DNA from: Candidatus Bathyarchaeota archaeon
GTDB taxonomy: Archaea > Thermoproteota > Bathyarchaeia > Bathyarchaeales > Bathycorpusculaceae
Reading direction: 5' to 3'
Length of the DNA: 64,000 nt
Assembly (NCBI GenBank): GCA_026014595.1
Contig: JAOZHY010000048.1
Coordinates: forward strand, 1-64,000
The notes beneath the pieces are model-generated. The model was not told where the DNA came from, made no database searches, and saw only the letters and a list, made by a program, of their open reading frames with translations. Made by a program: the position numbers and the translations under genes. Shown here in pieces: positions 12,355-52,150 of this stretch; position 1 is the stretch's first letter; each line of letters opens with the position of its first letter.

Positions 12355-12614
12355 CCTCTGTCCATAGTTACCTACATATGGCTTAACTTGCGCGCCTTGC
12401 AGGTTTTAAATTCGGAGCTACAGATATTCCGATGGTAGTTTTTGGAAGCAGGGGAGAAATGGCTAAGGCAGTGGTGGAAGTCAGCACTTTAGTTAAACAA
12501 TATGGACAGCTGCGGGTTGTTGCCATGCGAAAAGAGATATATGCCTTCACAGATTCTTCCTGTCAAAAAGGTTTGGTGATTCAGATGGTTTCGCCCAACG
12601 CTGGAGAAAACGAG

Positions 12615-13721
12615 ATGGTTGTCACGCCCTGGGAAGTAAAGGGCAAAGTAGACTACGAACGCTTAATCCGCGAGTTCGGCACCCAGCCGCTAACAGAAGA
12701 ATTGCTTGACAAAATCGCCGCACACACGGACAAGCTGCACCTTCAGCTTCAGAGGCGCATCTTCTTCTCCCACCGCGACTTAGACACGGTGCTTGACCTC
12801 TATGATAAGGGAATCAAGTTCGTCTTGTACACGGGCAGAGGACCATCAGGACCCGTACACATTGGACACCTTGTACCTTGGATTTTCACGCTGCACATGC
12901 AGGAAAAATTCGGCACGCGGCTCTATTTCCAGTTGACCGATGACGAAAAGTTCCTGGTGGAAGACGAGGCGAGCCTCGAGCAGACGCGCAGGTACGCTTA
13001 CGAGAACGCCCTTGACCTGATCGCCCTCGGGTTTAAGCCCGAAAACACATTCATCATCTACGACGTGCAGGACATCGACTTGCTTTATGATCTAACGCTG
13101 GAAGTTGCTAAACGCATCACTTACTCCACTGCACGCGCAACTTTTGGGTTCCAAGACAGCACCAACATAGGCTGGGTTTTCTGGCCAGCCCTGCAAGCCG
13201 CGCCATGCTTCATACATGCGAAGTTGACTGGCGAAAACGTGCCTGCACTCATTCCAGCCGCCATAGACCAAGACCCATACTGGCGGGTTACTCGCGACGT
13301 GGCTCAGAAGCTCGGCTATTACAAGCCCGCGCAAATCCACTGCCGTTTTCTTCCAGGCTTGGGAGCTGGCGGGAAAATGAGCGCGTCCATGCCCGAAACA
13401 AGCATATTCACCATGGACCCGCCGGAGTTGGTGAAGCGGAAAATCTGGAACGCTTTTACAGGCGGCAAAGGAACCGCGGCGGAACAGCGAAAGACGGGTG
13501 CCGACCCCACAGTGTGCAGCATCTTCCAGTACTACTTCTACCTCTTCGAGGAAAGCGACAAGAAGCTGGCTGAAAGGGAGCGCAAGTGCAAAACGGGCGA
13601 GTTGCTCTGCGGCGAATGCAAAACCGACTTAGCAGCCAAGCTCAATAAGTTTCTCGAGCAGCATCGGGAACGCCGTGAAAAAGCCAAAGACGTAATCGAC
13701 CAATACCACATAAAGCGCTAG
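12615..13721 (+). CDS. trpS: Tryptophanyl-tRNA synthetase (archaeal/eukaryotic type)
   Basis: Charges tRNA-Trp with tryptophan. The ORF track opens at 12432, but homologous archaeal enzymes begin with a phrase like the one here (MVVTPWEVKGKVDYERL). The ATG at 12615 has GGAGAAAACGAG directly before it, so I use that start, giving 368 residues. The class I signatures are present: GPVHIGH (HIGH) near residue 83 and GGKMSAS (KMSKS) in the C-terminal half. The tail carries Cys residues in CKTGELLCGECK. The substrate tRNA-Trp gene lies 3.6 kb downstream in the same window. Confidence 0.93.
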   Translation: MVVTPWEVKGKVDYERLIREFGTQPLTEELLDKIAAHTDKLHLQLQRRIFFSHRDLDTVLDLYDKGIKFVLYTGRGPSGPVHIGHLVPWIFTLHMQEKFGTRLYFQLTDDEKFLVEDEASLEQTRRYAYENALDLIALGFKPENTFIIYDVQDIDLLYDLTLEVAKRITYSTARATFGFQDSTNIGWVFWPALQAAPCFIHAKLTGENVPALIPAAIDQDPYWRVTRDVAQKLGYYKPAQIHCRFLPGLGAGGKMSASMPETSIFTMDPPELVKRKIWNAFTGGKGTAAEQRKTGADPTVCSIFQYYFYLFEESDKKLAERERKCKTGELLCGECKTDLAAKLNKFLEQHRERREKAKDVIDQYHIKR

Positions 13722-17072: not shown

Positions 17073-17196
17073 GGGCTGCCAGCTTTCCCAGGTTCACGTG
17101 GCCGAAGACCACACTACAGCTGGGAACGGAACGCGGTTTAACTTCTGAGTTCGGAATGGGATCAGGTGGGACCCGCGCCCTTTGGCCGGCAAACCC
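17073..17196 (-). rRNA. 5S ribosomal RNA
   Basis: On the minus strand the sequence contains the universally conserved loop B/C segment CCCATTCCGAACTCAGAAGTT and the loop E/helix IV region near its 3' half. The terminal helix pairs GGGTTTGCC (5') with GGCAGCCC (3') with one bulge, so I set the ends at 17196 and 17073 (124 nt). It is unlinked from 16S and 23S genes in this window, as is usual in this part of the archaeal tree. The exact ends may shift by a few bases. Confidence 0.9.
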
Positions 17197-17300: not shown

Positions 17301-17377
17301 ATGTCTGCAGTTTCCATTTAGGTGTTCGTACCTGTTGGTGGGGCTGTAGTCTAGGCAGGCATGACGACGGGCTCCAG

Positions 17378-17444
17378 AAAGCAAGCAACGGGTTTGCTGA
17401 CCTCGCCCAGAGGAATGACGAAATTCTGGAGCGGTCTTAGAGAA
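17378..17444 (+). ncRNA. tRNA-Trp intron 1 with box C/D guide-like elements
   Basis: 67-nt intron at the canonical 37/38 position. It holds a perfect box D' (CTGA, 17397-17400), a box C'-like ATGACGA (17416-17422) and a weak D-like CTTA (17436-17439). ACGGGTTT (17388-17395) is perfectly complementary to AAACCCGT (17443-17450) across the 3' exon. The fifth base before CTGA pairs with C39, the position methylated by the tRNA-Trp intron guide in Haloferax (U39 there). TTCTGGAGC (17424-17432) is complementary to the anticodon loop GCTCCAGAA. This matches the known self-guiding tRNA-Trp intron of Euryarchaeota. The box C proper is not obvious. Confidence 0.65.
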
Positions 17445-17450
17445 ACCCGT

Positions 17451-17480
17451 AGGAACGGCCAAGCGACTGTTTCCGGGTAA
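17451..17480 (+). other. tRNA-Trp intron 2, in the variable region
   Basis: About 30 nt between the anticodon stem and the variable loop. The AGG triplet is repeated at both boundaries (17451-17453 and 17481-17483), so the exact splice points are ambiguous by up to 3 nt. An internal GGAA/TTCC pairing (17452-17455/17471-17474) can form the intron stem. I could not draw a textbook bulge-helix-bulge, so a relaxed motif must be assumed. Confidence 0.6.
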
Positions 17481-17543
17481 AGGTCGTCGGTTCAAATCCG
17501 GCCAGCCCCACCAAACGCCACACCAGAACCTTAACGTGGAAAC

Positions 17544-51499: not shown

Positions 51500-52051
51500 T
51501 CAAAGATAAATGTTAAGCGCTTTGCTTTTCTGGAGTAGGTAGATTATGACCACGCTTATCACCATCTCAGGAAGCATATAGCTTGCATTGTATCCAACTG
51601 AGTAAACGAAGGGGTTCAGGTCTGGCGCAAACATCGGAGCAAACCAGACTACGCCAGATATGAAGTGCATCACGAAGCGTCCCGTTGTGCCCACAACCAC
51701 GCCGAAAGCGGGCCATTTTTTGAAGAAACCTGCCAAGCCGAGACAGCCGAAAGCGAACGGGTAGTCAAACAGAACTTGAGCAGGGTTATACGCGTAAGGC
51801 ATAACAACTAGCTGTACCACGCCGTACAGTGCGCCTGTGAACAAGCCGATTTTGGCTCCTCTTCTCAGCGATAGCCACAGGATAGGAACCATCGACCCCG
51901 CGGTGACTGAGCCGCCCTGCGGTAAGATTGTGAATGTCACGAAACTTAACGCCGTCGCCAAGGCAACAAAGGTTATGATTTCGGCGAGTATTTTGGTTGA
52001 AAAAGCTTTTCTGAGTCTGGTCAATAAGGTAGGTTTGTTTGTTTGGTTCAT
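51500..52051 (-). CDS. thiT: ThiT-type thiamine transporter (ECF S-component)
   Basis: 183 residues from the ATG at 52051. The track's longer start (52090) translates the riboswitch itself. Six hydrophobic helices, with the S-component/ThiT pattern in GGSVTAGSMVPILWLSLRRGAK and GVVQLVVMPYAYNPAQVLFDYP. ThiT takes up thiamine with an ECF energising module; none is in this window. A TPP riboswitch sits in its 5' leader, which supports the assignment independently. The KaiC-like and AIR-synthase-like genes follow with short gaps, hinting at one TPP-responsive unit. Confidence 0.92.
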   Translation of the reverse strand: MNQTNKPTLLTRLRKAFSTKILAEIITFVALATALSFVTFTILPQGGSVTAGSMVPILWLSLRRGAKIGLFTGALYGVVQLVVMPYAYNPAQVLFDYPFAFGCLGLAGFFKKWPAFGVVVGTTGRFVMHFISGVVWFAPMFAPDLNPFVYSVGYNASYMLPEMVISVVIIYLLQKSKALNIYL

Positions 52052-52052
52052 T

Positions 52053-52150
52053 GTTTTTCCCTCCGCCAGTATTATCTGGTTCAGGTTCAAAGGGTCGACA
52101 ACAGCGTCGGTTGTCCTCTCAGCCGGGTTCGCTCCCAGCTCCCCGAAACC
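52053..52150 (-). promoter_or_regulatory. TPP riboswitch in the thiT leader
   Basis: On the minus strand the leader contains the hallmark GGCTGAGAGGAC, ACCCTTTGAACCTGAACC and CCAGATAATACTGG (the GAUAAUxCxGGCGxAGGGAA box) of the THI element. The 5' GTTTC can pair with the 3' GAAAAAC as P1, closing the aptamer. The 3' strand includes GGAGGG, the only good ribosome site for thiT, 8 nt before the ATG. Ligand binding can therefore hide the site and block translation. TPP riboswitches are well documented in bacteria and in some archaea. Confidence 0.93.

Follow-up and report, generated by a model that had tools for sequence, protein, structure and literature searches.

Does the first intron of an archaeal tRNA-Trp gene guide the methylation of the very precursor in which it lies? 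In Haloferax and Pyrococcus, the tRNA-Trp intron has a box C/D guide nested within it, directed at C34 and at residue 39 (PMC4090602, PMC7994747, PMC7714728, PMC6313347). The locus that raises the question here occurs in a 64,000-nucleotide stretch of DNA from Candidatus Bathyarchaeota archaeon (contig JAOZHY010000048.1), all of which was analysed and is referred to below as the window. An earlier note on this DNA, made from the sequence alone, had recognised in it a tRNA-Trp gene with two introns, one of them carrying possible guide elements. We consider it quite likely, based on comparisons of sequences, that intron 1 is an intron-borne ‘half’ box C/D guide with a single kink-turn, aimed at C34 and C39 of its own precursor. 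As such, it would make Cm34, and probably Cm39.

The interrupted gene and its genome

Sequence analysis of the window places a tRNA-Trp(CCA) gene with two introns inside it at 17340-17513 (+). The Rfam tRNA model RF00005 matches 17340-17510 with 37.4 bits, and ARAGORN, run on the raw window, did not call the tRNA-Trp gene at 17340-17513. After removal of both introns, the 77-nt product GGGGCTGTAGTCTAGGCAGGCATGACGACGGGCTCCAGACCCGTAGGTCGTCGGTTCAAATCCGGCCAGCCCCACCA is called by ARAGORN as tRNA-Trp(cca), and the predicted spliced 77-mer is a perfect tRNA-Trp. This call and empty sites in relatives uphold the two introns of the earlier note, which had also placed the 67-nt intron 1 with exact boundaries. 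Its second intron, put at about 17451-17480, stands as an extra segment of 30 nt, and is located at 17452-17481 if the cut follows A44. The genes and their parts are as follows:

12432..13721 (+): tryptophan--tRNA ligase gene (NCBIfam NF008927, 526.9 bits, exceeding the cut-off)
17340..17377 (+): tRNA-Trp exon 1 (positions 1-37), from the RF00005 match and the ARAGORN call on the spliced product
17374-17376 (+): anticodon CCA, with C34 at 17374
17378..17444 (+): intron 1, at 37/38, bearing the guide elements; its homologues comprise 168 distinct sequences
17445..17451 (+): tRNA-Trp exon 2, consisting of A38, CCCGT (39-43) and A44, with C39 at 17446
17452..17481 (+): intron 2, in the variable region; a hairpin plus H helix, absent in relatives L026 and L028-L031
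17474..17478 (+): CGGGT in intron 2, which pairs with A38-G42, bases also used by the D' guide and the 5' anticodon stem
17482..17513 (+): tRNA-Trp exon 3, with the remaining variable region, T arm, acceptor strand and encoded CCA

The boundaries of intron 2 can slide by 1-2 nt without altering the spliced product. Relatives L026, L028, L029, L030 and L031, all of the same order, read CCCGT-AGGTC-GTCGG with no insert, which is the predicted empty site. A second intron in the same gene had been thought new or rare, and it proves ordinary in this order, where 51 of the 62 parsed genes carry it (a raw count in which at least two, L154 and L156, are parsing artefacts), usually with a length of 28-33 nt. 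The intron folds as a hairpin, and pairing of CGGGT with A38-G42 leaves U43-A44 and AAA as bulges at the two cuts; [CT]GGG, the partner of 39-42 in the H helix, occurs at the place of CGGGT in 45 parsed introns 2 of the same type. Since an exon-side helix was not found in the fold analysis, the structure is a relaxed bulge-helix-bulge, a form described in archaea whose splicing endonuclease has two kinds of subunit (PMC4090602). Introns in the variable region belong to a class already known in archaea (PMC4090602). Compared with shuffles, the intron 2 fold has no extra stability (z -0.05); what supports the intron is the conserved hairpin together with the empty sites, and not the folding energy. 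A different arrangement occurs in other Bathyarchaeia orders (L126, L127, L131 and L133), where an intron in the 5' anticodon stem ends in CCGCCA(A). This end is exactly complementary to TTGGCGG/TGGCGG in another intron of the gene, located in the variable region, and the two introns pair with one another over the anticodon stem.

The source genome is bathyarchaeial, 2.06 Mb in size and 89% complete. The tryptophan--tRNA ligase gene sits ~3.6 kb upstream of the tRNA-Trp gene, and the nearest named relative of its product is that of Ca. Bathyarchaeota archaeon A05DMB-2 (99% identity). This match and the searches of relatives place the host in Bathyarchaeia, in line with the TACK-type archaeon that had been surmised. 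No intronless Trp anticodon arm turned up in a search of the genome (the best match had 3 mismatches and was not a tRNA-Trp arm), so the interrupted gene is probably the only tRNA-Trp of the genome, in an assembly that is incomplete. The genome encodes fibrillarin (317 bits) and Nop5 (243 bits) in adjoining genes at C17:281089-282616, as well as L7Ae (98.6 bits), and has two splicing-endonuclease genes.

Some related genomes have two tRNA-Trp copies, with the guide intron in both (G013, C35 and C15; G082, C22). In the window, the tRNA-Trp gene has a 5S rRNA gene at 17074-17193 (-) as its back-to-back neighbour. Elsewhere in it, a TPP riboswitch (RF00059, 52041-52155 (-), 68.3 bits, exceeding the gathering score) is directly followed by an ORF for a small membrane protein (51500-52090 (-)) that appears ThiT-like by eye.

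Guide elements and their covariation in relatives

From 5' to 3', intron 1 comprises a variable stretch, ACGGGTTT, G, CTGA, CC-loop-GG, A and ATGACGA, and then a 12-nt spacer that includes TTCTGGAGC, GTCT at the place of box D, and TTAGAGAA up to the splice site. Its elements are:

17388..17395 (+): D' guide (n9-n2), 8 bp, pairing with the last two intron bases, A38 and 39-43
17397..17400 (+): box D' CTGA, the non-bulged kink-turn strand; relatives have CGGA, CAGA, CCGA and others
17401..17413 (+): C-stem CC/GG and loop, closing the D'/C' kink-turn; two-sided changes occur at the third pair
17415..17421 (+): box C' ATGACGA, the bulged kink-turn strand; ATGA[ACGT]GA in most Bathyarchaeia
17424..17432 (+): D guide, 9 bp, with 31-37 and intron +1,+2 as partner
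17434..17437 (+): expected box D site, which reads GTCT (degenerate); NNGA in 22 of 59 representatives
17440..17442 (+): GAG, the intron strand of the bulge-helix-bulge helix, which pairs with C32-C34 and competes with the D guide

The D' guide (17388-17395) complements AAACCCGT at 17443-17450 in 8 of 8 positions, and the D guide (17424-17432) complements GCTCCAGAA at 17371-17379 in 9 of 9. With the covariation in relatives described below, this bears out the guide elements that had been seen in intron 1. By the N+5 rule, n5 of the D' guide, five bases upstream of box D', faces C39 (17446), the target to which the earlier note had counted from CTGA. The register of the D guide is taken from box C' because box D itself is degenerate. 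Counted in this way, C34 lies opposite 17429, which is n5 of the 12-nt spacer after C', and the degenerate box D gives the same register from the other side. Cm32 and Cm34 had both been offered as the second target; the register fits C34, and C32 is rejected.

Boxes D' and C' fit a kink-turn with a short stem, a 3-base bulge (A-A-U in the window intron, G-A-U in many relatives), tandem sheared G.A pairs, and then a Watson-Crick pair between D'1 and C'6. This kink-turn, closed by its own stem-loop, would be the site at which L7Ae binds and recruits Nop5-fibrillarin. Methylation would be directed to C39 by the stretch before D', paired with the 3' anticodon stem and the last part of the intron, and to C34 by the 12-nt stretch after C', paired with the first part of the intron and the anticodon loop. 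The exon-intron duplex would then stand where a C/D motif would be.

Homologous loci were collected from BLAST searches over 40 relatives, which found the tRNA-Trp gene in nearly all, and with a covariance model built on 33 introns (alignment A1). The guide system had been expected to be new or rare in TACK archaea. It is instead the rule in Bathyarchaeia, where the intron model matches 144 of 163 genomes. In a sample of the phylum, 142 of 299 genomes match, with 56 of these matches inside Bathyarchaeia; among Thermoproteota outside Bathyarchaeia, matches occur in 86 of ~240 sampled genomes, about a third. Judging from these matches, this stripped-down form of intron guide is common across the archaeal phylum. 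In another archaeal phylum, entered via a genome labelled Thermococci archaeon B88_G9, 20 of 28 genomes match at E<1e-8. After the addition of 100 divergent loci, 168 distinct introns were parsed, of which 136 have a recognisable kink-turn, and these were reduced to 59 representatives. Both the search model and the parser demanded the D guide, so its seeming universality is partly a matter of ascertainment.

Likewise, the pairing of the D guide with 31-37 proves nothing alone because it was demanded by the parser. The pairs at intron +1 to +3 were not demanded by the parser (+1 and +2 were pairs in the search model). Among the 59 representatives, the D guide is paired with +1, +2 and +3 in 100, 93 and 69% of cases, compared with 69, 47 and 34% in shuffles (0/2000 each), and its pairing at +4 and +5 is at or below background. 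In 81 disjoint sister pairs, double compensatory changes number 4, 9 and 8 at +1, +2 and +3 (21 in total) and 0, 0 and 1 at +4, +5 and +6. Sliding the partners by one base leaves 0 to 2 double changes. We regard this covariation of aligned sequences at +1 to +3 as strong and largely free of shared ancestry. In 151 of 154 introns, the D guide lies at a fixed distance from the RTGA of C' (11, or 8 if ATGATGA is counted from its second ATGA). In several families (L118-L133, f10-f15), the C34 guide has a mismatch opposite A36 (CAGGAGC/CGGGAGC, not CTGGAGC), and the flanking pairs are kept.

Of the 136 introns, 102 retain the D' guide, as do 32 of 59 representatives. It is lost or degenerate in the other 34 introns (e.g., L144-L149 and L163-L165), where the kink-turn and the C34 guide stay. 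Among guide-keeping representatives, 88% have n3 paired with the last base of the intron (48% when shuffled, 0/5000), with C-G, T-A, A-T and G-C all seen, and 84% have n9 paired with 43 (50% when shuffled); neither pair was in the search model. As n1/-3 is a conserved mismatch, the duplex comprises n2 to n9. No double changes were found in the D' guide between close sisters. Its changes lie mostly on deep branches, so its covariation rests on fewer independent events than that of the C34 guide. Given the covariation at +1 to +3 and at -1, both guide duplexes span exon-intron junctions.

The C'/D' kink-turn recurs in relatives, although its G.A/A.G core was partly imposed by the parser. The outer two pairs of the C-stem are formed in 33 of 33 sequences and the third pair has 14 two-sided changes, while D'1/C'6 is paired in 81% of guide-keeping representatives (54% when shuffled); neither the covariation of D'1/C'6 nor the third C-stem pair was imposed by the parser. 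Results for the 3b/3n position (D'2/C'5) are mixed, with no significant covariation against shuffles and four double changes between sisters.

Missing terminal boxes, the splicing fold and other readings

Box C is absent from the window intron, as the earlier note had remarked, and the same is true across the lineage: RTGA occurs in the 5' part of only 4 of 59 representatives. In about half of the representatives, a box C with its spacer would not fit into the room upstream of the D' guide. The terminal box C (RUGAUGA) and box D (CUGA) of a box C/D sRNA sensu stricto are therefore not found, and because box C is lacking and the box D site is mostly not NNGA, intron 1 falls outside the canonical dual box C/D sRNAs. 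Under textbook rules, this leaves the C34 guide without the kink-turn that should carry its fibrillarin. Two substitutes were considered and rejected. An ATGACGA in the 5' exon (D-arm positions 21-27) lies at too great a distance from the D' guide, is not shared by relatives whose D arms differ, and appears to be a coincidence. No RUGANGA occurs across the junction of the circularised intron.

The splicing signals of intron 1 are also conserved. Intron bases -3, -4, -5 and -6 pair with 32, 33, 34 and 35 in 98, 95, 70 and 82% of representatives, and the bulge-helix-bulge has a helix of 32-34 with GAG and 2+1-nt bulges around both cuts, with 3 of 4 H pairs in the window. For the 84-nt arm, the C34-guide fold is the predicted minimum at -28.6 kcal/mol and the constrained splicing fold has -20.9 kcal/mol, values that ignore the kink-turn and protein binding. 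The two folds cannot coexist because the guide duplexes extend over the splice junctions and draw on exon bases that the splicing fold also needs. Given that each duplex includes such a junction, both guides probably act on the unspliced precursor. Methylation should precede excision of intron 1 since the guide fold and the bulge-helix-bulge exclude each other; methylation would come first, then refolding, and then excision by the splicing endonuclease. Intron 2, an ordinary variable-region intron, should leave before C39 can be guided because its splicing helix sequesters A38-G42. We infer the order intron 2 out, methylation, refolding, intron 1 out.

A broader reading, which we put forward only tentatively, is that throughout Thermoproteota the exon-intron duplex replaces the terminal C/D motif, and one C'/D' RNP methylates C34 (and C39 if the D' guide is kept) of its own precursor. 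In this order, the three mutually exclusive partners of A38-G42 (the anticodon stem, the D' guide and intron 2) could then make intron 2 a switch for splicing-methylation-splicing.

Could the excised, circular intron instead act in trans, as a free guide on other pre-tRNA-Trp or on spliced tRNA? The Haloferax data have been read in this way (Singh et al. 2004, as cited in PMC7994747), and Thermococcus contains abundant circular tRNA-Trp intron (PMC9014305). In the bathyarchaeial species of the window, the D' guide can also pair with spliced 36-43, with one G-U pair. However, pairing is kept with intron -1/-2 and +1 to +3, which are absent from the spliced tRNA. In L034, L043, L120 and L123, n3 is A, which breaks the pair with G37 and keeps that with intron -1 (T). 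Pairing of n3 with G37 of the spliced tRNA shows no covariation, and the spliced tRNA as target of the D' guide, while possible in this species, is unsupported where n3 changes. Overall, we find a trans-acting guide doubtful, although action in trans on unspliced precursors is possible.

It is improbable that intron 1 is an element of precursor folding, one that masks the anticodon loop and 3' stem or sets the path of folding and splicing, perhaps with L7Ae bound, and guides no methylation. Such a role would fit the guide-D fold being the predicted minimum and the absent terminal C/D motif, and identical pairing geometry would serve masking. Yet masking leaves unexplained the fixed distance from C' to the guide, and the n1 mismatch with pairing of n2-n9. 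Moreover, the N+5 register falls on C34 and C39, both of which are methylated in Haloferax tRNA-Trp (PMC4090602, PMC7714728), and Cm34 is present in the tRNA-Trp of a TACK archaeon, Sulfolobus acidocaldarius, as detected by mass spectrometry (PMC7668247). The predicted methylation at 39 was not detected in Pyrococcus (PMC7668247). In S. acidocaldarius, exactly one tRNA was enriched by L7Ae RIP-seq (PMC5539422).

That the intron is a relic of a former box C/D guide, with Cm34 made by a protein-only methyltransferase or a separate sRNA and C39 unmodified, seems to us very improbable. Box C is missing, box D is degenerate, the D' guide has been lost in a quarter of introns, and Haloferax is viable without its intron (PMC4090602), all of which suit a relic, but recent compensatory changes at +1 to +3 between close sister species indicate that selection still acts on the pairing. 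Chance complementarity, which the earlier note had offered as its alternative given the missing box C, or a decayed tRNA gene, has nothing beyond that missing box to recommend it and is hardly credible, because the lack of box C extends across the lineage and the pairings nevertheless co-vary, as tested against shuffles and slid partners, in deeply conserved genes that yield a correct tRNA after splicing.

Comparison with known guides and introns

If intron 1 is a self-guiding half guide, self-guiding tRNA-Trp introns are not a euryarchaeal speciality and would predate the split of the main archaeal groups. A minimal box C/D guide would then consist of one kink-turn and pairing to its own exons, and the intron would be a natural half-guide for asking if a fibrillarin RNP methylates beside box C' without a C/D partner. 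It may also provide a candidate guide for the Cm34 of Sulfolobus tRNA-Trp, for which PMC7668247 names none, although it names guides for other S. acidocaldarius positions. As far as we searched the open-access literature, the following are new: the spread in Bathyarchaeia and other Thermoproteota, a box C that is consistently missing, the proof by covariation that the guide duplexes include intron bases, and the competition from a second intron.

So, what does intron 1 most resemble? The known euryarchaeal pre-tRNA-Trp guides include the 103-nt intron of Haloferax volcanii, sR50 of Pyrococcus abyssi and the 62-nt circular intron of Thermococcus kodakarensis. The parallel that had been drawn with the self-guiding introns of Haloferax and Pyrococcus holds in the gene, the 37/38 position, the order of elements (D' guide to 39, C', D guide to 34) and the target nucleotides, and Pyrococcus-type introns are of similar size. 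Here too the duplexes cross exon-intron junctions and exclude the splicing fold; in euryarchaea, junction-spanning duplexes and mutually exclusive guide and splicing folds were reportedly described by Clouet d’Orval in 2001 and Bortolin in 2003. The euryarchaeal guides are said (Bortolin, 2003) to have kink-turns at both C'/D' and terminal C/D, whereas Bathyarchaeia and other Thermoproteota lack the terminal box C throughout and have a degenerate box D. In addition, residue 39 is C here, not U, and a second intron competes for the target of the C39 guide.

With box C/D sRNAs in general, intron 1 shares a kink-turn with two sheared G.A pairs, the 12-nt C'-to-D spacing and the N+5 rule, in a genome that encodes fibrillarin, Nop5 and L7Ae. 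Unlike them, it is without box C and a good box D, and is encoded inside its own target. Intron 2 resembles the non-canonical archaeal tRNA introns (e.g., at 45/46; Crenarchaeota, Thermoproteales) in being short, in lying in the variable region, in its relaxed bulge-helix-bulge and in a host with two splicing-endonuclease subunit genes. It differs from them in that it shares its gene with a guide intron, and its splicing helix uses the target bases of that guide.
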